DNA of 64,000 nucleotides from Candidatus Altimarinota bacterium (lineage in GTDB: Bacteria > Patescibacteriota > Gracilibacteria > JAUYGZ01). A model generated the notes under the pieces. It saw only the letters and a list, made by a program, of their open reading frames with translations, was not told the DNA's origin and made no database searches. Positions 52,561 through 62,476 of the stretch are shown here, one piece after another. The stretch covers positions 62,001-126,000 of the forward strand of contig JARGOK010000002.1 of the NCBI GenBank assembly GCA_029233985.1, given 5' to 3'. The translations under genes were made by a program, and so were the position numbers. Each line of letters begins with the position of its first letter. The first letter of the stretch is position 1.

Positions 52561-52599
52561 AAAAAGACCTTGTATCAATTGATACAGGGTCTTTTTTTA
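52561..52599 (+). terminator. Rho-independent terminator of the RRM gene
   Basis: AAGACC and TGTATC around 52563-52576 pair with GATACA and GGTCTT around 52581-52592 across an AATT loop, followed by TTTTTTT. Its end touches the stop codon of the convergent recombinase gene. Confidence 0.92.
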
Positions 52600-53418
52600 G
52601 AACGGACTCTGAATATTCAACAGTGCAGACTTCGCAACCTTCGTATACACCTGAGTGGTCCGAATGCTCGAATGCCCAAGCAAACTTTGTACATACCGAA
52701 GATTGGTGCCATTTTCTAACAAGTGCGTTGCAAAACTGTGGCGAAGAGAATGAAAAGTAGCAGGTTTTTTTATCCCAACAGCCTTCAACGCTCTTTCAAA
52801 AACCTTTTGGAGAGATCGAGAACTCAAGTTCCCCCCCCTTTCACTTTCAAAAACCGCAGCATCTCCACCCCTATTCTTACAATACTCAAAAAGAGAATCT
52901 TTCAATCTTTCCGGTAATAGCGTGACCCGATCCTTACAGCCTTTGGCAGCCTTCAGATGAATCGAATTCGTATCAAAACATATATCACCCACCTGGAGTG
53001 CAGTCACCTCAGAAATCCTCAGTCCCGAGCCATATGCCAAAGATATCATCAAGTGATGCTTGAAATTTGTTACGCGTGATAACAGCACCTCTATCTCATG
53101 ATGAGACAGCACAACTGGTAATTTTTTTGCTCGATACGATGAAGGGATATCCACTATCAGTGGCTTTTTTAAAACATATCTCGAAAAGGCCTGAAAAGAT
53201 TGCTTATAAGTATTCAATGTAGAGGAAGCATAATTATATTTCAAATGCCTCTCAACAACGAACGCTCTCAAATTCAACGGATTAAATTCTTGAAAATCAT
53301 AACACTCAAAAAAAGCTTCCAGATTACTTAAGTACATCTTCACCGTCCGAGGACTCTTCTTCCGAAGCAATAATTCTTCACGAAAAACCTTCAAATATTC
53401 TTCTTTCATATCATTCAT
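52597..53418 (-). CDS. Tyrosine recombinase of the array (Xer/IntI-like)
   Basis: 273 residues. N-terminal SAM-like core-binding domain at 1-85 (SPRTVKMYLSNLEAFF), catalytic domain after KLPVVLSHHEIEVLL. Active residues are all present: Arg134 (GSGLRISEV), Lys159 (AAKGCKDR), His223 and Arg226 (FHSLRHSFATHLL), His249 (LLGHSS), Tyr258 (TTQVYT). The C-terminus IQSPF recalls the SPL ending of IntI. It is shorter than typical IntI (about 320-340) because the insertion between KNRGG and the SLQKVFERA helix is missing. Head-to-tail divergence from the cassettes is the classic integron layout. Start at 53418; M at 53409 is possible. Confidence 0.85.
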   Translation of the reverse strand: MNDMKEEYLKVFREELLLRKKSPRTVKMYLSNLEAFFECYDFQEFNPLNLRAFVVERHLKYNYASSTLNTYKQSFQAFSRYVLKKPLIVDIPSSYRAKKLPVVLSHHEIEVLLSRVTNFKHHLMISLAYGSGLRISEVTALQVGDICFDTNSIHLKAAKGCKDRVTLLPERLKDSLFEYCKNRGGDAAVFESERGGNLSSRSLQKVFERALKAVGIKKPATFHSLRHSFATHLLENGTNLRYVQSLLGHSSIRTTQVYTKVAKSALLNIQSPF

Positions 53419-53515
53419 CTAAAAACTACAATTCATTTTCTTTTTACTCCCAGTTCGGATAATAAGCAAAAAAGTGGTGTTGACAGGTAAACAGTTCGTA
53501 TATACTGGAGTTGTC
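53419..53515 (+). other. attI-like recombination site
   Basis: The 91 bases upstream of the recombinase start lead to GTTGTCCGAC with the core G at 53509. GTTGTCC plus the following bases of cassette 1 are complementary to the sequence just before attC1 (GGACAAC at 54864-54870 and beyond), so the junction is fixed by cassette 1 itself. The part to the left shows no attC-like palindrome, as expected for attI. Confidence 0.6.
53479..53505 (+). promoter_or_regulatory. Possible cassette promoter (Pc-like)
   Basis: TTGACA at 53479-53484, 15 bases, TATACT at 53500-53505, pointing into the cassettes from within the attI region. The spacing is short, so activity is uncertain. Cassette 1's gene runs the other way. 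Confidence 0.4.
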
Positions 53516-53722
53516 CGACATTTCTGTTTGGGAATCTCTTAATTTGGATAAAATGGGTACTTTTTCTTAGGAAGAACACAATACACCCCCTCCCCACCCA
53601 AAAAACAATTCCATAAAATAAGTAAAACAGCCACCTCTGAGAGTGGTTACTATTCACCGCATGCTTAAAAATACACCTCAGTGGCTTACGAGGAAAGAAA
53701 ATATTCAAAATAAAAACAAAGA

Positions 53723-54682
53723 TCAAAGATCAATCTGACCCATCACCGCCGACCGCAAACGCGCCCCAGGAGCGTCAAGCACTAGACTGCGCACAGACAG
53801 GTTCACGCTCCGAGCGTTCGGATTCCAATCAACCACGCCAACAAGGCCATTTTCCTCATCTATTTCCTGAAGGAGTGTATATTGCCATTCGTACTTCGCA
53901 TCTCGCCTCGTGCTTTCACCTTCATATTCACATCCTAGTGGTTTGGCTTGAACTAACGAGTCCATCATGAGAACAGCAGCCGATCCAAAATTGAGTCTTT
54001 GCACACCTGTATCTTGGTAGCGCCTATCAAACTCTCCAATCCGTCCTCTAAAGTCTTGTAGAGCACTATCCCACTCAGGAATATCAACTCGTTGTGCCCC
54101 ATCGACGATAGCCCAACGATAGCCGGGGATCTTTTTTCCTTCCTGAGCTAAGGCATTGAGTGAATTTCGAGTGAAATCTGATAAATATGGCGTTTGCTGC
54201 CCTTCCATGGTACGGCAAGCTTCACAATTTAAAGCCTGCACATACCGCTGAGCATTGGTAATTGGATAGATCACAAGACGCGGTTCTTTAAATTGTAGTA
54301 CTTCCTGAGCTTGGCGTGGAGTCAACTGAGATCGGATTGACTCAAGTACTTGCTCAGGTTCCGGCAGAGCAACGTCTCCTTGATCCGGATTGACCTCAAA
54401 AAGAGCCATTGTAGTTAACGCATGGTGTATTTGATTAAGCTCATTGTCAACTCGCTCTAGCAATAATGCCATAACTTGAAGAATTGCACGCCTCTCTTCG
54501 GGAATATTGTCTACTTGAGCTAGGGTAGCTGCCCGAACGTTCGAAGCTACTGAAATAAGAGCTGATGCCAGTTGAGGCTCTTCACCGCCATTTCTCACAA
54601 CTACTCGCAAAAGAGCTACTCCTTCACTAGGAGCTCCGCTTGCTCTTACCGCTCGTTCGAGTTTTCTTACACCCTCATCCAT
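53723..54682 (-). CDS. Cassette 1: hypothetical protein, reversed orientation
   Basis: 319 residues, start MDEGVRKLERAVRASGAPS. Helical N-terminal half, then a mixed half with YPITNAQRYVQALNCEACRTMEGQ, YRWAIVDGAQRVDIPEWD and a C-terminal KYEWQYTLLQEIDEENGLVGVVDW. No family recognised. It is transcribed toward the recombinase, against the usual cassette direction, so it cannot use a promoter in attI. Only the unused flanks and the long inverted arms share the cassette with it. Confidence 0.6.
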   Translation of the reverse strand: MDEGVRKLERAVRASGAPSEGVALLRVVVRNGGEEPQLASALISVASNVRAATLAQVDNIPEERRAILQVMALLLERVDNELNQIHHALTTMALFEVNPDQGDVALPEPEQVLESIRSQLTPRQAQEVLQFKEPRLVIYPITNAQRYVQALNCEACRTMEGQQTPYLSDFTRNSLNALAQEGKKIPGYRWAIVDGAQRVDIPEWDSALQDFRGRIGEFDRRYQDTGVQRLNFGSAAVLMMDSLVQAKPLGCEYEGESTRRDAKYEWQYTLLQEIDEENGLVGVVDWNPNARSVNLSVRSLVLDAPGARLRSAVMGQIDL

Positions 54683-54863
54683 GTTTTATGCTTAAACTAT
54701 CATTACATTATACCATACTTTTGACTGGATTTGTTAAGAATTTTTTAAAAATATAGGAGAATTGTTTTCGCCCCCTCCTTTCTCTCTCTACAGAGAGAGA
54801 CCAGAAAATTTAAGGTAAAAGTGCCCATTTTAACAATATATACGATTCCCAAACAGAGACAAC

Positions 54864-54948
54864 GGACAACAGCCTGCTATCCTACATATCGACGCGGTTC
54901 AACAATTATACCGCACCGATTCGTCGGATCAGCATGCAAACGTTGTAT
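54864..54948 (+). repeat. attC1
   Basis: Left arm GGACAAC then AGCCTGCTATCC; right arm GGATCAGCATGC, AAAC and GTTGTAT at 54942-54948. Extra unpaired bases occur on the right arm, and a second stem TATCGACGCGGT / ACCGCACCGATT forms the terminal part around 54888-54921. These are the elements of an attC fold. Confidence 0.85.
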
Positions 54949-55033
54949 GACATCCATTCTTCTTCCTCTGTTCCAGAGGATTTTCACTCTGCTTTAGGGG
55001 AAATAAATAAGTAATTCAGGACAAGATTTTTCT
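54942..55033 (+). repeat. Left arm of cassette 2's long terminal inverted repeat
   Basis: Three blocks pair with the right arm at 56565-56633: GTTGTATGA plus CCATTCTTCT near 54942-54963, a 16-base block 54981-54996 with 56588-56603, and a 25-base perfect block 55008-55032 with 56565-56589. The arms enclose the reverse transcriptase gene. Confidence 0.85.
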
Positions 55034-55103
55034 CTAAGAAAGACTAATAAGAAAACACCTGAAGGTGTAGAATGGAACAAGGGAAATAAGATAATACAAT
55101 AAA

Positions 55104-56525
55104 ATGATAGAGTTTGGTGAGTTCAAAAAATACTTTAACAATAATTTCTGGAAAAGATTTCACCAGAAAGTGGTATTTTTTCCTATCCTGTTATCTTCTG
55201 AAAAAGAAGAAATCATAGAAACTCTATATAATGATCTTTTAAACAAGAAATACTACCCATCTATTCCAAGAGCATACATATTTGAGAATAAGGGCAAAGG
55301 AGTAACCAGAAAAGTGCCGGTCTTTGAAATTAAGGATTACTGCCTATATTACTATTGTGTTAAGAGACTAGAAAAGAAAATTGCATACAATAGAGTCGAT
55401 AATACATTTGGGGGATGGTCACTTGGTGGTGTTTTCAGAAAAAGCGAAGATGAGGAGATGAAATTTAGAACTGAAACGCATAATTCCTTTGAGGACGAGC
55501 TTGCTAATTATCATGGTGTCTCCTTAGCTGAATACTCATTTAACCCAACTGCATGGAGCAAGGCTTATGGGGATTTTAGCTCCAAATTGTATGCGAGCAC
55601 ACAGGAGGCGAGCTATAAATATGCAGTTGAGTTAGACATATCTAATTTCTACGATTGTATTCGTCTCGATTTGCTGGAAATTTGGATAAGGGAAGTTGCC
55701 AGTAAAGATAACGCTGAAGATATAAGTGTTCTATTTCATTTTTTGAATTATTGGAACAGGGAATCAAATAAGTATGACAAACAAACCGTCGGAGTCCCAC
55801 AAGATGCCTTTGCTGACTGTTCCAGAATTCTAGCTAATTTTTATCTTCAAAGACACGATCAGTATACATATGAATTATGCGAAATTAACCAGTGTAGATA
55901 TTTAAGATATGCTGATGATCAATTCATTTTTGGAGAGAGTAAAGAGAAACTTGAATACTTAATTTACTTAATTTCGGTCAACCTGTCTAAATTCGGACTT
56001 AATCTTAATCAAAAGAAAGTAAAATATTGGGAAATAGATGAACTGACAGAGCATCGTTCATTTAAGCTTTTCGATTTGGCAAAAGATAAAGAAGATAGAA
56101 AGAACAAAGAAAATGTCGAGAAATTTCTAGATAGTTATTTCTATATTAGAGACAGTGGATTGGAAGATAGTCTCAAAAAAAGAGGAATCTCCTTATTACG
56201 AAAAGCGCTTTTATGCGATTTGAGTATTGTATCATTAGATAGAAGGATAAAGACACTTGGATATGCTCTTGAAGAGGATTTTCTCAGAAAGGCAGAAAAG
56301 AATTATCTAAAAAGAATATATGAAAACCTAGATACTGATGAAAAGAAGCAAGAATTCATTAATCAACTTAAAACACTAGCAAATGAGGCATTTTATAACT
56401 CAATTCATTTCAGAATAAAAAGTTTCTTTGAAGACTTAAAAATTGACACTAAAGAAATCGATGAAAGAATAGATTTCCTCAATAATAGAGAACCTAAATA
56501 TGAGTCAGGGGTAGAATTTATTTAA
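55104..56525 (+). CDS. Cassette 2: reverse transcriptase
   Basis: 473 residues. RT motifs: ELDISNFYDCI with the first catalytic Asp near 178, GVPQDAFADCSRILANFYL (motif 4), YADD at 269-272 in RYLRYADDQFIFG, and LNLNQKKVKYW (motif 6). The C-terminal 170 residues are helical, without the group II intron maturase (X) domain or HNH nuclease. The closest style is the defence-related RTs (DRT/UG and Abi groups). No msr-msd hairpin of a retron and no template-repeat pair were seen. Its promoter is not clear; a TAATACAAT box lies just before the ATG. Confidence 0.85.
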   Translation: MIEFGEFKKYFNNNFWKRFHQKVVFFPILLSSEKEEIIETLYNDLLNKKYYPSIPRAYIFENKGKGVTRKVPVFEIKDYCLYYYCVKRLEKKIAYNRVDNTFGGWSLGGVFRKSEDEEMKFRTETHNSFEDELANYHGVSLAEYSFNPTAWSKAYGDFSSKLYASTQEASYKYAVELDISNFYDCIRLDLLEIWIREVASKDNAEDISVLFHFLNYWNRESNKYDKQTVGVPQDAFADCSRILANFYLQRHDQYTYELCEINQCRYLRYADDQFIFGESKEKLEYLIYLISVNLSKFGLNLNQKKVKYWEIDELTEHRSFKLFDLAKDKEDRKNKENVEKFLDSYFYIRDSGLEDSLKKRGISLLRKALLCDLSIVSLDRRIKTLGYALEEDFLRKAEKNYLKRIYENLDTDEKKQEFINQLKTLANEAFYNSIHFRIKSFFEDLKIDTKEIDERIDFLNNREPKYESGVEFI

Positions 56526-56564
56526 AGGAGCTCTAAAACTCGCTCACCACAACCAATAAAGAAA

Positions 56565-56633
56565 GAAAAATCTTGTCCTGAATTACTTAAAGCAGAGTGA
56601 AAAGAAGAGGGAGAAGAATGGACATCATACAAC
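56565..56633 (+). repeat. Right arm of cassette 2's long terminal inverted repeat
   Basis: Reverse complement of blocks in 54942-55033; it runs directly into the left core box ATACAAC of attC2. Read as a circle, the two arms and attC2 would form one hairpin with a stem of about 70-90 paired bases. Confidence 0.85.
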
Positions 56634-56762
56634 AGCAGTATGTGCGGTTCACTGCTAATCACCCACTCCGAAAACCACGTTCACCCATATCGTTCGGTGG
56701 TCCTCCCGCTTTGCGGAAAAATTATACCACCTCCGACATCGCACATACTGCAAACGTTGTAG
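56627..56762 (+). repeat. attC2 (long terminal loop)
   Basis: Left ATACAAC then AGCAGTATGTGCGG; right CGCACATACTGC, AAAC and GTTGTAG at 56756-56762. The central loop is about 50 bases longer than in the other sites and contains its own pairing (CCGCTTTGCGG, and ACCAC with GTGGT). Confidence 0.85.
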
Positions 56763-56802
56763 GACATAAATGTGTTTTCCAAAAAAGTGATTTCTTCCTT
56801 AT

Positions 56803-57447
56803 TTATAGAGGGGAGAAACATTCCAATAAGTCTCGTGGATGATCAAGGATTCTATCTGCCATCGAGAAATCATGGTTTAAAGTGTACTTGTTGGGAATCA
56901 CAAAACAAATCAAACCTGCAGCTTTGGCAGCTTGAACACCTCTTTGCGTATCCTCAATTACCAAACACTGTTCCCTATCATGTGGAACTCGATCATAAGC
57001 CTGCAAATAACAAGCTGGATCAGGTTTGTCCTCATCAAAGTCCTCTCTGGCAATTATGAAATCAAAATATTTTCTCAAATTCTTAGCATCTACAATATGA
57101 TCATTGTTACTACGAAGCGAACTTGTAACAACTGACATTGGTACTCGTTGATGAAGTGAATCCAAAACCTCACGAATTCCATCCATTATGACAACTTCTC
57201 TTGACAATGAAGTTTGGTAGAGAAGATTTCGTTCTTCCCTCAATTGTTGCACTCGTTTCCGATCGACACCTTGATCAAGTAGCAAGTCGAAAGAACTCTT
57301 CCCTGTGGCAAGATGAACACCCGTCCACCAATCAATTGTGAGTTCCAAACCTTCTTTGGATAAAACTTGCTGAGTTGCTTTAAAAAAAGCTGGTTCAGTA
57401 TCAACGAGAGTTCCATCGCAGTCCCAAAATATTTGCTTATACGGCAT
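56803..57447 (-). CDS. Cassette 3: HAD-superfamily phosphatase
   Basis: 214 residues. Motif I DCDGTLVDTE near 9-18, motif II VTSSLRSN near 105, motif III Lys in EDKPDPACYLQA near 145, motif IV VIEDTQRGVQAAKAAG near 170. It belongs to the beta-phosphoglucomutase/phosphoglycolate-phosphatase-like subgroup; the substrate is unknown. Orientation is opposite to the array. The terminal inverted arms overlap neither catalytic part. Confidence 0.88.
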   Translation of the reverse strand: MPYKQIFWDCDGTLVDTEPAFFKATQQVLSKEGLELTIDWWTGVHLATGKSSFDLLLDQGVDRKRVQQLREERNLLYQTSLSREVVIMDGIREVLDSLHQRVPMSVVTSSLRSNNDHIVDAKNLRKYFDFIIAREDFDEDKPDPACYLQAYDRVPHDREQCLVIEDTQRGVQAAKAAGLICFVIPNKYTLNHDFSMADRILDHPRDLLECFSPL

Positions 57448-57585
57448 ACGTTTCGATTTATTGGAAGCTAGTATATCATCATTTTTGCCCTATAAATAGG
57501 GCGATTTGGCTCGCAAAATTCACCCCCATCCCCTCTTTTGCTCGCCAGAAGAAATCACAATTTTAAGGGAAAACACATTTTCATC

Positions 57586-57669
57586 CTACAACAGCGGTCC
57601 ATATGACATATCGCGATGGTGGGAACATTTTACCATCACGATTCATCACATAGACCGCAAACGATATAC
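57586..57669 (+). repeat. attC3
   Basis: Left CTACAAC then AGCGGTCCATATG; right CATAGACCGC, AAAC and GATATAC at 57663-57669. The two boxes do not match each other, but the left box fits the start of cassette 3 (GTTGTAG) and the right box belongs to cassette 4, as the integron rule demands. Confidence 0.8.
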
Positions 57670-57692
57670 GAAATATTTCTCAGCCCAATTCT

Positions 57693-58610
57693 TTAGGAAG
57701 AACATTGTTTAACATGTTCTAGGAAAGCCCTTAACAGGTAAAAAACACTATCATTTCGCGGCTTATTACCTTGAGTTTCAATATCCCAACCATTCCAACC
57801 TTCAACACCATTAGCAATCGCCTCTTCTCCTTTAGCTAGTAGTTCTCCGATAGTAATGGTTACCATACCTCTAACCTCTTCGGTTTGTTCAGCATACTCT
57901 ACAAGCCGCTCAAGATCAGCAGTACCTAACATGCCTAACTCGCGTATTTCAAGAAGGAATCCAAGTAGTTTATTACCATCTGGAGTTAATTGAACTCCTT
58001 CATCTCTTAATTTTTCTTCAATTTGAGCATTCATATTACCCAAACCAACTGTCGTCAGTTGAGTCACCTTAGGGTCTAACGGAAGAACATCGCCTAGAGT
58101 AATTAATCCTTCTGCTTCATCACCAGCTTCCTCAGAAATCTCTCTTTTCAGCTCTCTCCCCATGATCTGCTCCATGCCGGAACGCAAATCATAAGTCGGT
58201 ACAAACAATTTGCCTGTATCAAGAACATGTGCTCCTTGCATAAGAAAGTATAGATATTGAGGGACCTTGCCCCCTACAATAAACCTTTCATCTACTAGAG
58301 AAGGATCTTGAGCAAATTGCTCTTCAACACGTTGTTCTTCCTGAGAATTAAGACCACCTCCAATAAACTCTAATACCCTACGTTGAGCTTGTATTCCCAT
58401 TCCCACCGGCATTTCTTCAACACGATCAAGAAACTCCCTCCAATTATGAGGAACTATAACTGCCGCAACTGACTGACGAAAAGAACGTCTCTCATCAGGA
58501 ATATCTGAATGCTCACCGGGTGCCTGAACAATACCTTTTTCTTGAAAAATACGGTTGATTCCAGTTTCAACCTCCAGTGCTTTATCGGCTAATGAGTTTA
58601 TTGAAGACAT
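57693..58610 (-). CDS. Cassette 4: hypothetical protein, reversed orientation
   Basis: 305 residues from ATG at 58610 (MSSINSLADKALEVETGINRIF). Acidic, mostly helical; no motif or signal peptide. The early PDERRSFRQSVAAVIVP recalls the PEERRAILQVMALL stretch of the cassette 1 protein, and both have similar length and direction, so remote relatedness is possible but unproven. The inverted arm TTAACATGTT recurs near both gene ends. Confidence 0.6.
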   Translation of the reverse strand: MSSINSLADKALEVETGINRIFQEKGIVQAPGEHSDIPDERRSFRQSVAAVIVPHNWREFLDRVEEMPVGMGIQAQRRVLEFIGGGLNSQEEQRVEEQFAQDPSLVDERFIVGGKVPQYLYFLMQGAHVLDTGKLFVPTYDLRSGMEQIMGRELKREISEEAGDEAEGLITLGDVLPLDPKVTQLTTVGLGNMNAQIEEKLRDEGVQLTPDGNKLLGFLLEIRELGMLGTADLERLVEYAEQTEEVRGMVTITIGELLAKGEEAIANGVEGWNGWDIETQGNKPRNDSVFYLLRAFLEHVKQCSS

Positions 58611-58685
58611 AATAGAAAAATTAAGAGACAACATGTTAACATTTGGCTAGAATAAGTCAAATAGAGTAGGGCTGAGAAATTCATC

Positions 58686-58770
58686 GTATATCAGCCTGCT
58701 ATCCTACATATCACCGCGGTTCGAACATTATACCACGGCGATTCGTCGGATCAGCAGGCAAACGATATGT
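58686..58770 (+). repeat. attC4
   Basis: Left GTATATC then AGCCTGCTATCC; right GGATCAGCAGGC, AAAC and GATATGT at 58764-58770. Nearly the same core as attC1. The left box complements cassette 4's first bases GATATAC. Confidence 0.85.
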
Positions 58771-58811
58771 GATATATTGGAATAAACTTATCCACCCCTT
58801 AACTCATCATC

Positions 58812-59201
58812 ATGAAAAAGCTACTTTCTTCTTTTGGATTACTGCTACTTGGTTCTATTGCCACTCTAGGCGCAGTTTATGCGCAAGGCGCTGTAAAAGA
58901 TTTCCCCGATGTAGATTCTTCAGCATACTATTTTGAAGCTCTTCAAGATATAAACTCACGTGGCATAGTGAATGGATATCAAAATGGAAACTTTGGCCCA
59001 AATGATGCTGTAACTAGAGCTCAATTGGTGACTATTTTAAAGAGATTCGATGATAGTCAAGTAAACGCATACCATAGAGGTGGCATTGGAAAACTTCAAA
59101 CGCTCATTTGTGCAAGCATCAACAAAGAAGACCTGGCATCAGAAAGTGAAGGATGGGGAAAGCCTCAAGAAGTCTATGATGAAGTCTGTACCCTCCCCTA
59201 A
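58812..59201 (+). CDS. Cassette 5: small exported SLH-domain protein
   Basis: 129 residues. Signal peptide MKKLLSSFGLLLLGSIATLG with AQG near the cut, then one S-layer-homology domain (VKDFPDVDSSAYYFEALQDI, GIVNGYQNGNFGPNDAVTRAQLVTILKRF) and a short tail with two Cys. It should attach to the cell wall, like the SLH protein at 16320. Smallest cassette (539 bp); the ATG follows the cassette's left end by only 47 bases. Confidence 0.85.
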   Translation: MKKLLSSFGLLLLGSIATLGAVYAQGAVKDFPDVDSSAYYFEALQDINSRGIVNGYQNGNFGPNDAVTRAQLVTILKRFDDSQVNAYHRGGIGKLQTLICASINKEDLASESEGWGKPQEVYDEVCTLP

Positions 59202-59218
59202 ATTTATTCCAATTCATC

Positions 59219-59309
59219 ACATATCAGGCGTATATCCAAAATATCCCGTACTAATCCTGCGGGATGTTTTAGTATTTAGATTCATCGGATCACTCTGCAA
59301 ACGTTGCAT
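59219..59309 (+). repeat. attC5
   Basis: Left ACATATC then AGGCGTATATCC; right GGATCACTCTGC, AAAC and GTTGCAT at 59303-59309. The core stem is less regular than the others, with ATCCCGT / GCGGGAT in the terminal part. The left box complements cassette 5's first bases GATATGT. Confidence 0.75.
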
Positions 59310-59438
59310 GGCATATCTCTTCATTTTTCTTTCTTTCTAAACATAATTGAAACGAGAAATAGAGTATTTTTCTTGTCACATTTTTTATTACTCCAATTAC
59401 ATCGAAAGTGTATATTTAACTTATAGATAATAATTTCA

Positions 59439-60032
59439 ATGAAACTCACACCACTAATACTTAAAGCAATCACTTCAGCCACCAGACTGCATAATGGGGC
59501 CACTCGAAAAGTCGATGATACCCCATTCATTGTGCACCCATTCAGTGTGGCCTGGATAATTTCAGAAGTCACAGATGACGAGGAGATTATCGCAGCTGCT
59601 TTACTTCATGATGTATTAGAAGATGTAAAGGGGTATCGGGAAGAGGATATGCTGAGAGATTTTGGCCCAAGGATTACAGGAATAGTTAAGGATGTAACAG
59701 AAGACAAGGACCCAAACAAAGAGTACAACGAGAAAGCTACCTGGAAAAAACGCAAGATGGGGTATATAGACCATCTAAGAACAGCTTCACCAGAGGCTAT
59801 GATACTTTCTTGCTCAGACAAAATTAGTAATCTTACTAGTTTTCTCAGAGATTATAGAGAATTAGGAGAAGAGATATGGGAATATTTTAATGCCAGCAGA
59901 GAAGAAAAATTTTGGTATGAATCTTCTTTATTGGCAATATTCAGAGAAGTAGAAGATCAAAGAATGGCGCCTCTACTGGGTGAGTATGAAAGACTTGTAA
60001 AAGAAGTTCATATAGATAGCTCATTGAAATAA
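59439..60032 (+). CDS. Cassette 6: HD-domain hydrolase, RelA/SpoT-HD-like
   Basis: 197 residues. HD phosphohydrolase of the SpoT/MESH1 type: ATRLHNGATRKVDDTPFIVHPFSVAWI (metal His), AAALLHDVLEDV with the HD pair near 62, then CSDKISNLTSF with the last Asp. No synthetase, TGS or ACT domain, so it would be a stand-alone (p)ppGpp hydrolase or a related nucleotide phosphohydrolase. Plus strand, in array direction. Confidence 0.85.
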   Translation: MKLTPLILKAITSATRLHNGATRKVDDTPFIVHPFSVAWIISEVTDDEEIIAAALLHDVLEDVKGYREEDMLRDFGPRITGIVKDVTEDKDPNKEYNEKATWKKRKMGYIDHLRTASPEAMILSCSDKISNLTSFLRDYRELGEEIWEYFNASREEKFWYESSLLAIFREVEDQRMAPLLGEYERLVKEVHIDSSLK

Positions 60033-60055
60033 ATTTAATAAAGAAAAAAGATATC

Positions 60056-60140
60056 ATACAACAGCGTGATATCCTACATATCACCACGGTCCAAACATTA
60101 TACCGTGTCGATTCATCGGATCAACACGCAAACGATATAC
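60056..60140 (+). repeat. attC6
   Basis: Left ATACAAC then AGCGTGATATCC; right GGATCAACACGC, AAAC and GATATAC at 60134-60140. Terminal stem CACGGT / ACCGTG. The left box pairs with cassette 6's first bases GTTGCAT with one mismatch. Confidence 0.85.
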
Positions 60141-60208
60141 TCCATTGCACCACTTTTTATTTTACTTTTTAATAGGTCATTTAGAGCTATTTTTCTTAAG
60201 AAAGACCA

Positions 60209-60236
60209 TTGATATTTAATAAATATACAATATAAT
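60209..60236 (+). promoter_or_regulatory. Own promoter of cassette 7
   Basis: TTGATA at 60209-60214, 16 bases, TATAAT at 60231-60236, 23 bases before the ATG. A cassette with its own promoter does not depend on a promoter in attI. Confidence 0.6.
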
Positions 60237-60258
60237 GTACTCTTGATTAGTTCATATT

Positions 60259-61452
60259 ATGAATAGAAAAAAGATTGATGTTCTTGGAGCTGGTATCAAT
60301 GGAATTACATCTGCTATTTCCTTAGAACTTGCTGGGTATGATACTCAAATTCATAGCCAAAATCTTCCATTTGACTTGGATTCCCGAGATAGTCGAATTT
60401 CAAAAATCGCAACAGATTTTGCAGCTGCATCGGTTATTCCTCACACCGTGGAGATTGATAACCTAGCCACAAGAATGGGGGTATCCCAGCAGATATTTCG
60501 TATTCTGAGTCAGCACACTCCTACTGGAGTAGGCTGGCGAAGACATTATGAAGTTTTCGAAAAGAGCAAAAAAAATCCTCCATATGCAAATCTTGTAGAT
60601 AATTTTAGTCGTTTTCCTGAATCTGGAGAGGGTATTTCTGGTGCTCCAAGACGAAATAATGTAGATGAAATTTGGGGATGGACATTTAGAGCTCTATTTG
60701 CTGATATGCCAGTGTATCTCCAATGGTTAAATGCTCTCTATATAAACCTAGGGGGAAAAATTGTCACTCATGAGATTACACCTGAAACTATCTCAGATCT
60801 TAAGGGAAGTGCTATTGTTAATTGTACAGGATATGGGAGTTCAGTCTTATTTCCGGAACTTTATTCTACAGAAAATAGTGATTTCAATATCGTAAAAGGA
60901 TATCTTGTCCATCTCCCAACTGGAAATATCATTGTCCCTAAAAATAACGAAGAATTACTTGTTTCATATAATTACACACCTGATCCTAAAGATTTTGAGC
61001 AAGGTCAAGATGTGTACTTTTATCCTAGAAAATCAGACATTGTATTAGGAGGCACACGTCAAAAGGGAAATTTTGAATCTGATGGAAAATGGAATGGAGA
61101 TAGGACTAAAGGACCTACCATTGAAATCACTGGAGTAGAAATACCAGAAGGTGTAATTACAATAAATCGAGAAATTATCCTTAATCTAACAGGGATTGAC
61201 ATTGAACAATTCGATAAATCTGCATGTTGCGGCTATCGGTTTACCACATCAAAAGTAAGACTCGAAATTGGTGAAAATCTCAGAAGGGATCGAAAAATAA
61301 TTCATAATGTCGGACATGGAGGATCAGGAGTTACACTTTCATGGGGTTGTGCCACACAAGTAGTAGAACTAGTTTGTGAAGCACTCAATGATCAATCAAA
61401 GAACTCAGAAGAAATCTGTAATTCCCTACAAGAAGTAATCAGGCAGAAGTAA
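60259..61452 (+). CDS. Cassette 7: DAO-family FAD-dependent oxidoreductase
   Basis: 397 residues. FAD-binding dinucleotide fold DVLGAGINGITSAISLELAG at the N-terminus, then NCTGYGSSVLF near 190, and near the C-terminus CGYRFTTSKVRLE and NVGHGGSGVTLSWGCA, which is the pattern of D-amino-acid oxidase and related enzymes. Probably soluble. Substrate unknown (D-amino acid or similar amine). Longest enzyme in the array. Confidence 0.88.
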   Translation: MNRKKIDVLGAGINGITSAISLELAGYDTQIHSQNLPFDLDSRDSRISKIATDFAAASVIPHTVEIDNLATRMGVSQQIFRILSQHTPTGVGWRRHYEVFEKSKKNPPYANLVDNFSRFPESGEGISGAPRRNNVDEIWGWTFRALFADMPVYLQWLNALYINLGGKIVTHEITPETISDLKGSAIVNCTGYGSSVLFPELYSTENSDFNIVKGYLVHLPTGNIIVPKNNEELLVSYNYTPDPKDFEQGQDVYFYPRKSDIVLGGTRQKGNFESDGKWNGDRTKGPTIEITGVEIPEGVITINREIILNLTGIDIEQFDKSACCGYRFTTSKVRLEIGENLRRDRKIIHNVGHGGSGVTLSWGCATQVVELVCEALNDQSKNSEEICNSLQEVIRQK

Positions 61453-61511
61453 AAAGAAAAATAGCTCTAAATGACTTTGAGAGGTGATGAAATAAAAAGT
61501 GGTGCAACAGG

Positions 61512-61594
61512 GTATATCAGGCAGCTACCCAACATATCCGGTCGGTGAAAAATCATACTAACCAAATTCGTCGGATATACCGCAAACAATATAT
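61512..61594 (+). repeat. attC7
   Basis: Left GTATATC then AGGCAGCTACCC; right CGTCGGATATACCGC, AAAC and AATATAT at 61588-61594. The core pairing is weaker than in attC1-6. The left box complements the first bases of cassette 7 (GATATAC), with a second exact block near 61497-61506 paired to 60146-60155. Confidence 0.75.
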
Positions 61595-61746
61595 GACATA
61601 TTTTTCAATAATTTTTCCTCAAGCAGGAAATTTTGTTGAAGAATTTAAAAAAAAGAATGAAATTTCTATTTTTTTCAATATAGTGAGGGGGATAAAAAAG
61701 TGTTTCTCCACTATCGCTCCGAAATAAATAACCTTAAGGATAATTT

Positions 61747-62340
61747 ATGATTAATAAACGAACTAAATTTATTGTTGATAAAGCTTCTTGGAAAAAAGTT
61801 TTACTACTATTGATTCCAACTTTAGGCACATATTTTACAATGTTGTTTTACTCCATTCCAAAAGTTATGGAATATACAAATGGTATGAAAATTTTAGACC
61901 TAATACCAATGGGATATAATTCAGAATATGCACAAAAACTTTTTGAAACTTTGGGGAAAACTGGTCGTAATATTTATCTCTGGGAACAAATCCCCCTGGA
62001 CATGATTTATCCTATTCTATTTGCCATTACTTTTTCATTATTTTTAGCTCTTGTTCTTAAAAAAGCATTTTCTCAAGAAAAGAATCTACAGAAACTTTGT
62101 ATACTTCCTGCTATTGCTGGATTATTTGATTACTTAGAAAATATTGGAATTATTATTATGATTCAGATTTTTCCTACTTTTAACAATGGAATAGCAAATA
62201 TTACGAATATTTTTTCAGTATCAAAAAGCCTAACGACAACAATATCATTCACACTTATTATTATAGGTCTAATTACTTTATTTTTGAAAAAGAAAGGAGT
62301 TTTTAAAAATGAAATTCTTCAGCAAAATAATAAGGAATGA
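61747..62340 (+). CDS. Cassette 8: polytopic membrane protein
   Basis: 197 residues with about four membrane helices (near 18-38, 85-105, 118-140, 160-185) and charged loops. Family not recognised. Its last codons (KNEILQQNNKE) lie inside the right inverted arm of the cassette, which pairs with 61591-61650. TGA stop. Confidence 0.65.
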   Translation: MINKRTKFIVDKASWKKVLLLLIPTLGTYFTMLFYSIPKVMEYTNGMKILDLIPMGYNSEYAQKLFETLGKTGRNIYLWEQIPLDMIYPILFAITFSLFLALVLKKAFSQEKNLQKLCILPAIAGLFDYLENIGIIIMIQIFPTFNNGIANITNIFSVSKSLTTTISFTLIIIGLITLFLKKKGVFKNEILQQNNKE

Positions 62341-62351
62341 AAAAAGTATTG

Positions 62352-62440
62352 AAAAATACGCTTCGGGGTCGTTGCACTTCACTCTCCAATATTTTGTTCC
62401 ATTTCATTTCACAATGCATCGCATATACTAAACAATATAT
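62352..62440 (+). repeat. attC8, degenerate; right end of the array
   Basis: The right half is clear: TCGCATATACTAAAC then AATATAT at 62434-62440, like attC7. The left arm before it (GAAAAATACGC at about 62351-62361) fits cassette 8's start only in part, and the inner left arm is not recognisable. No complement of the sequence after 62440 was found further on, so the array seems to end here. Confidence 0.5.
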
Positions 62441-62476
62441 GGAATTTCTATCAAAGAAACCCAAAAACTCACTACT

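Follow-up and report, generated by a model that had tools for sequence, protein, structure and literature searches.

A 64,000-nucleotide (nt) stretch of a Candidatus Altimarinota genome (assembly GCA_029233985.1, contig JARGOK010000002.1, positions 62,001 to 126,000; the window hereafter) carries a tyrosine recombinase gene, an attI-like junction and an array of eight cassettes. The bacterium is tiny and uncultured, and its array resembles the gene-collecting integrons through which antibiotic resistance spreads. We propose a chromosomal integron whose type is distinct, is found across the candidate phyla radiation (CPR) and has a tyrosine recombinase without the I2 helix of the integron integrase IntI, a reading to which we assign a probability of about 0.8. 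The first-pass annotation had described an integron-like array in a candidate-phylum genome. The order of recombinase gene, junction and cassettes was borne out, as was the kind of genome, whose nearest named relatives are Patescibacteria/Peregrinibacteria. Its integron reading holds for the attI, the same-orientation hairpins that favour the bottom strand, the unrelated cargo and the cassettes that differ between genomes, and has to be amended for the recombinase, which is without the IntI-specific domain. Set beside the current integron definition, the I2 feature is absent and the organisational features are present, and we would describe the array as a variant that probably works like an integron. 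Its organisation, fixed junctions, structural conservation and spread, and the sharing of cassette frames between genomes, are read directly from sequence. The recombinase and its attachment site are located as follows.

52597-53418, minus strand: tyrosine recombinase of 273 residues, an I2-less relative of the integron integrases.
53495-53521, plus strand: attI, a dif-like dyad of TTCGTATATACTGGAG then TTGTCCGACAT, with the crossover after 53510.

The predicted protein has the PF00589 integrase domain (Pfam, 4.5e-38), and its catalytic residues R134, K162, H223, R226, H249 and Y258 are invariant across the alignment of the recombinase family. By profile, alignment and model, it is without the IntI-specific insertion (I2 helix). 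The NCBIfam integron integrase profile TIGR02249 gives 187 bits against a cut-off of 265, in a match that is split into two pieces and leaves profile positions about 179-236 unmatched. The spacing from KDR to HxxR is 60 residues, nearer to the 69-74 of Xer proteins than to the 102-103 of IntI1, IntI2, Vibrio IntIA (control integrases taken from the plasmid search) and Cyanobium IntI, and at the insertion the alignment to IntI4 (PDB 2a3v) has 61 residues in IntI4 versus 18 here. In the AlphaFold2 model (predicted local distance difference test score 87.5) helix 170-180 is followed by a loop and a short strand only, and then by helix 200-214. Among PDB folds this model matches IntI4 (2a3v) best and XerA second best. 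Because the IntI-specific domain is absent, the enzyme falls outside the current definition of an IntI.

The recombinase also scores below the cut-offs for XerA (NF040815, 198.3 against 220 bits), XerC (169.9 against 335 bits) and XerD (160.5 against 330 bits). These sub-threshold matches, and the dif-like attI, are what could be said for an enzyme that is only a chromosome dimer resolvase beside an array that never changes, the outcome that the first-pass annotation had set against its own reading. We regard its chances as negligible: unlike Xer proteins, with which it has the catalytic core in common, the enzyme lies beside cassette arrays, a separate Xer-type gene is kept in the same genome (G000:C5:184109) and in relatives, not all of the CPR has the array recombinase (it was found in 19 of the 145 genomes that were sampled from across the phylum, at E<=1e-40), and the first cassettes at the same attI differ between genomes. 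We conclude that the array recombinase is not the chromosome dimer resolvase. In a phylogenetic tree, 30 CPR recombinases form one clade (support 99/96) and IntI a separate one (100/99), sequences from Bacteroidota, Bacillota and Spirochaetota making up a third; the tree does not settle the branching order of the three. A phage origin was also considered and is not supported, because the viral scan gave no member of the CPR clade (best identity 35%).

The missing helix might instead reflect decay, an ordinary IntI ancestor having lost I2 and become inactive to leave a fossil array, and the poor state of attC sites 5, 7 and 8 (see below) would fit such a history. We consider it very improbable, given that I2 is missing in all 30 members of the CPR clade and in separate Bacteroidota, Spirochaetota, Bacillota and archaeal lineages, with the catalytic residues invariant there, that no IntI above the TIGR02249 cut-off was found among 21 genomes of the class, and that attI is conserved while the cassettes differ.

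The attI of the CPR type is a conserved double-stranded site that adjoins the start of the recombinase gene and has its crossover fixed after a G (G/TT or G/AT, the slash here and below marking the crossover). In the window the attI junction reads ..ACTGGAG/ and the cassette side opens as GGAG/TTGTCCGACAT, the half-sites making a dyad that we take to resemble dif. Using a leave-one-out position matrix in place of a direct regular expression (which matched 10/32 flanks), the motif TTCGNATAnnnnnGAG/TTATNNGAAAT was found in 23/31 CPR flanks, several of the flanks without a match being very short, and 0/100 shuffles were as good. TTGACA stands immediately upstream of the attI core, where the promoter scan makes no plus-strand call that would correspond to a Pc feature. 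Comparison of related genomes at the locus, suggested in the first pass, gave the same attI with different cassettes: in the same-family genome G001 homology to the window spans attI and stops at the junction. Elsewhere in the genome from which the window comes lies another attI (C5:406981-407044), 98% identical over 64 nt and without a recombinase, after which come a different cassette and an orphan attC at C5:408959. Two attI copies of one genome that match up to one base and are then followed by different cassettes are strong evidence for site-specific insertion. This second locus (G000:C5:406981-409047, equivalent to L079 4982-7048) has one cassette, with a 540-residue AAA ATPase.

The recombinase is also found in named Peregrinibacteria, Gracilibacteria, Paceibacterota, Moranbacteria, Wolfebacteria, Magasanikbacteria, Falkowbacteria and Kuenenbacteria, and genomes of other classes of the phylum have an attI and attC layout like that of the window, attC being seen where contigs reach far enough. 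Within 1 kb on the array side the contig breaks off in 9/18 relatives, and on the other side it does so in none, as expected if repeated sites break assemblies. The array is not an assembly artefact, because G032, a complete genome on a single contig, has sites and a long terminal repeat beside its recombinase. Since the same recombinase clade, attI and attC go with differing cassettes, the array appears to work as a cassette store. In the complete Wolfebacteria genome CP011209 (L098 7733-9845), three near-identical sites of ~134-146 nt adjoin the recombinase and look like an expanded repeat.

The attC sites of the window all have the same orientation and lie between the cassettes. They are listed here with their R boxes included and with folding energies of the bottom and top strands.

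54861-54951, minus strand: attC site 1; bottom -19.4, top -13.1 kcal/mol, z -4.3.
56624-56765, minus strand: attC site 2; bottom -24.7, top -19.7 kcal/mol, z -3.7.
57583-57672, minus strand: attC site 3; bottom -19.2, top -14.6 kcal/mol, z -5.9.
58683-58773, minus strand: attC site 4; bottom -21.8, top -15.0 kcal/mol, z -5.0.
59216-59312, minus strand: attC site 5, halves mismatched; z -1.2, 65 bits with model R1 (site in its training set).
60053-60143, minus strand: attC site 6; bottom -13.9, top -11.1 kcal/mol, z -3.6.
61509-61597, minus strand: attC site 7, halves mismatched; z -0.7, 77.8 bits with model R1 (site in its training set).
62350-62441, minus strand: decayed terminal site 8, a degenerate half-site in which the right half and the core AAACA/ATATATGG are left and the left half is gone; z -0.2.

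The attC layout is present in sites 1-7, and folding of the bottom strands, as the first pass had advised, gave z values of -3.6 to -5.9 for sites 1, 2, 3, 4 and 6, with the bottom strand better than the top. The claim of attC-like sites between the cassettes thus stands for these five and is weakened for sites 5 and 7, which fold poorly, and for site 8, which is decayed and which model R1 does not find. Sites 1-6 end in ..GCAAACG/ and site 7 in ..GCAAACA/, and the cassettes that follow open, in order, as AAACG/TTGTATGACAT, AAACG/TTGTAGGACAT, AAACG/ATATACGAAAT, AAACG/ATATGTGATAT, AAACG/TTGCATGGCAT, AAACG/ATATACTCCAT and AAACA/ATATATGACAT. One covarying structure is common to the seven sites: 15 of its 30 pairs are changed on both sides, which 0/500 shuffles reach, and with the pairing slid by 1-3 columns at most 6 double-sided changes are seen over seven sites, a comparison that somewhat favours the structure because it was derived from site 1. 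The R' cores are GTTGTAT, GTTGTAG, GTTGCAT and GTTGTCC, and also GATATAC, GATATGT and AATATAT, the consensus being GTTRRRY; those of relatives include GTTAGCT and GTTATAT. The halves of site 5 do not pair, nor do those of site 7; a rough match between the left stem of the former and the right stem of the latter suggests that the two sites have exchanged halves.

L-side sequence differs between the attC sites while the pairing stays, and the sites would therefore have no sequence-specific duplex L arm. This bears on a double-strand pathway, in which attI-like R cores would be exchanged as duplexes in the style of Xer and the hairpins would have another role, for example in transcription termination. 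In its favour are the dif-like dyad of attI and the absence of I2, which is thought to permit single-strand substrates. The lacking L arm speaks against such a pathway, as does a bottom strand that is more stable than the top in 34/37 CPR sites, and we think it unlikely.

The cassettes lie on the 5' side of the recombinase and extend out to ~62434, most of them bounded by long terminal inverted repeats (TIRs).

53511-54942: cassette 1, hypothetical protein (53723-54682, minus strand); TIR arms 53511-53569 and 54811-54870.
54943-56756: cassette 2, reverse transcriptase (55104-56525, plus strand); TIR arms 54942-55035 and 56562-56633.
56757-57663: cassette 3, HAD-family phosphatase (56803-57447, minus strand; Pfam HAD_2, 3.2e-30); TIR about 45 nt.
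57664-58764: cassette 4, hypothetical protein (57693-58634, minus strand); TIR arms 57663-57692 and 58663-58692.
58765-59303: cassette 5, short secreted S-layer-homology protein (58812-59201, plus strand; Pfam SLH, 1.1e-14); TIR arms 58764-58790 and 59199-59225.
59304-60134: cassette 6, HD-domain (RelA/SpoT-like hydrolase) protein (59439-60032, plus strand; Pfam HD_4, 1.1e-15).
60135-61588: cassette 7, FAD-dependent oxidoreductase (60259-61452, plus strand; Pfam DAO, 4.9e-17); TIR arms about 60134-60200 and 61452-61518.
61589-62434: cassette 8, membrane protein of 197 residues (61747-62340, plus strand); frame formed by an opening of about 100 nt and an end at 62305-62379.

That the openings of cassettes 1-7 are reverse complements of their ends had been claimed in the first pass, and its two examples are exact: cassette 4 opens GATATACGA and ends TCGTATATC, cassette 5 opens GATATGTGAT and ends ATCACATATC. 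Own-end complementarity scores are 17.5-36 in seven cassettes versus at most 15.5 in shuffles, and the claim is weak for cassette 6, where complementarity is confined to the core and a long TIR is not significant (p=0.31). Pairing with the cassette's own core is real, but core-site complementarity is too narrow a description of repeats that form long terminal frames. Each opening pairs with its own end, and not with the ends of other cassettes, far beyond the core, over about 60 nt in cassette 1, 94 aligned columns in cassette 2 and 27-67 nt in cassettes 3, 4, 5 and 7. When the first 12 nt are left out and p<=0.01 is required, long TIRs are found in 7/8 window cassettes and 18/23 cassettes of other CPR arrays; the same measure gives 1/43 cassettes for the superintegron of Vibrio sp. 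HDW18. For I2-less Bacteroidota arrays the count is 0/19. A short mismatch inside the terminal stems (CA in the opening, CA in the end) was seen at R' positions 10-12 in cassettes of the window, L034 and L100, and this recurring mismatch may mark orientation. A pair of inverted repeats in L034 was considered as nested cassettes and rejected, being two cassettes with similar arms, each of which matches its own end.

The arms are found again around other cargo. Cassette 8 of the window and the first cassette of G042, a genome that recodes TGA, are 84% identical over 102 nt at their openings and 93% over 74 nt at their ends, with unrelated interiors that encode the 197-residue membrane protein in one and a 705-residue ATPase in the other. 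Similarly, the cassette at the second attI and a G052 cassette with two other genes share their ends (85% over 74 nt) and openings (77% over 48 nt). Frame sharing with a swap of cargo is thus seen in two independent pairs involving other genera, and non-coding blocks of arm plus site are 80-91% identical across genomes of different families whose recombinases are mostly less than 50% identical. We read this as a probable reusable frame with changing cargo.

Long arms that are specific to each cassette and recur around other cargo could also be expected if the cassettes were transposon-like units flanked by TIRs and moved by a transposase in trans or spread by homologous recombination between arms, the recombinase being incidental. 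Here the junctions fall at one constant base of an attI that is conserved and adjoins one recombinase clade, the sites between the cassettes are covarying hairpins in a single orientation, and no transposase was found among the window cassette genes with Pfam and NCBIfam profiles; this makes such units a decidedly unlikely explanation.

If the array is an I2-less integron, the recombinase would act on a cassette excised as a circle, joining its folded bottom strand to attI. Once circular, the cassette would have its terminal arms adjacent and flanking the attC hairpin, lengthening it by tens of base pairs; the lengthened hairpin would favour extrusion or folding, and the arms may provide the stability or asymmetry for which IntI has I2. 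A new cassette could form by the placing of a different gene between arms that already exist. We put this forward tentatively, giving slightly less than an even chance to the proposal that a CPR-wide lineage recombines hairpin attC without I2 by means of long TIRs that lengthen the hairpin, with the arms as cargo-independent frames for gene swaps.

Several points weigh against an I2-less integron. Cores in the window are in part GATATRYG instead of GTTRRRY, and since sites 5, 7 and 8 fold poorly, parts of the array may be decayed. Bottom-strand stability was dropped as proof of attC: the energy bias alone cannot certify attC function and supports strand use only, of which it is no proof because Vibrio control sites lack it on this measure (12/44). 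The case rests on sequence, and the genomes compared offer no two strains that differ by one gained or lost cassette. To our knowledge, recombination of attC by an I2-less enzyme has no experimental precedent, since published work holds IntI1 to be inactive without its specific domain. That loss of activity was reported by Messier and Roy, cited in PMC7790495 and PMC9668308.

Known systems resemble the window to different degrees. The Vibrio IntIA superintegron, used as control, has the same order of intI, attI and array, a divergently oriented integrase and single-gene cassettes, and its attC have R'' and R' boxes, a G/TT crossover and own-core complementarity of roughly 4-14 nt. It differs in the I2-containing insertion of its integrase, in the near absence of long TIRs and in sites that are near-identical repeats, whereas stems in the window are variable and covarying. 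Archaeal integrons (Ghaly et al. 2022, PMC9668308) are likewise integron-like arrays in mostly uncultured lineages, and their IntIs, unlike the CPR recombinases, are described as keeping the IntI-specific domain. I2 is likewise absent from the IntI-like recombinases beside arrays of Bacteroidota, such as that of Flavobacterium difficile (L129, with regular 118-nt attC-like sites and GTT cores), in which the bottom strand is the more stable in 27/29 sites; unlike those of the CPR, these enzymes fall in a separate clade, the array is 3' of the integrase and the cassettes are without long TIRs. Attachment-site arrays placed in this way were seen in L129 (11417-20482) and also in L144, L151, L120, L126 and L139, with sites of about 110-120 nt in most and about 54 nt in L139; the cores, of about 10 nt, are specific to the cassette. 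Few members of the Bacteroidota were credited with complete integrons by IntegronFinder 2.0.

As to cargo, the reverse transcriptase of cassette 2 belongs to the UG13b class of defence-associated reverse transcriptases (PADLOC RT_UG13b, 9.2e-127), and anti-phage cargo may therefore travel as a cassette. In a set of 60 relatives, a homologue of the cassette 8 protein occurs once, in G024. At about 61680-61730 of the window, a leader element within this cassette consists of GAGGGGATAAT and then a hairpin whose loop is TCCGCTWCGCTCCG, and this element recurs upstream of unrelated genes in several CPR genomes (flanks L009, L010, L014 and L019). In the window, Rfam at gathering threshold gives three tRNAs and nothing else.

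The I2 helix is regarded as needed for cassette capture and as enabling single-strand recombination (PMC4792948, PMC7790495), and published work sees in it the innovation by which a double-strand recombinase became the integron integrase. This poses a chicken-and-egg paradox, in which I2 is not selectable before attC nor attC before I2 (PMC4792948), and a lack of intermediates on the route to IntI has been noted (PMC7790495). Natural I2-less enzymes beside attC arrays make this question directly testable. A survey in which the IntI-specific domain is required, as it is in PMC9668308, would miss such arrays or count them as integrase-less; a literature search, with preprints and most subscription journals outside its scope, turned up no paper about integrons of CPR bacteria. 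The identity of arm-plus-site blocks between families suggests that the CPR has a platform for exchanging genes. We know of no solution to the first assembly of cassettes, for which long-TIR frames around different genes offer a concrete handle. If this lineage does recombine hairpin attC without I2 by means of its long TIRs, these arrays would represent a living intermediate between Xer/dif and the IntI integrons, and a concrete route for the birth of cassettes.

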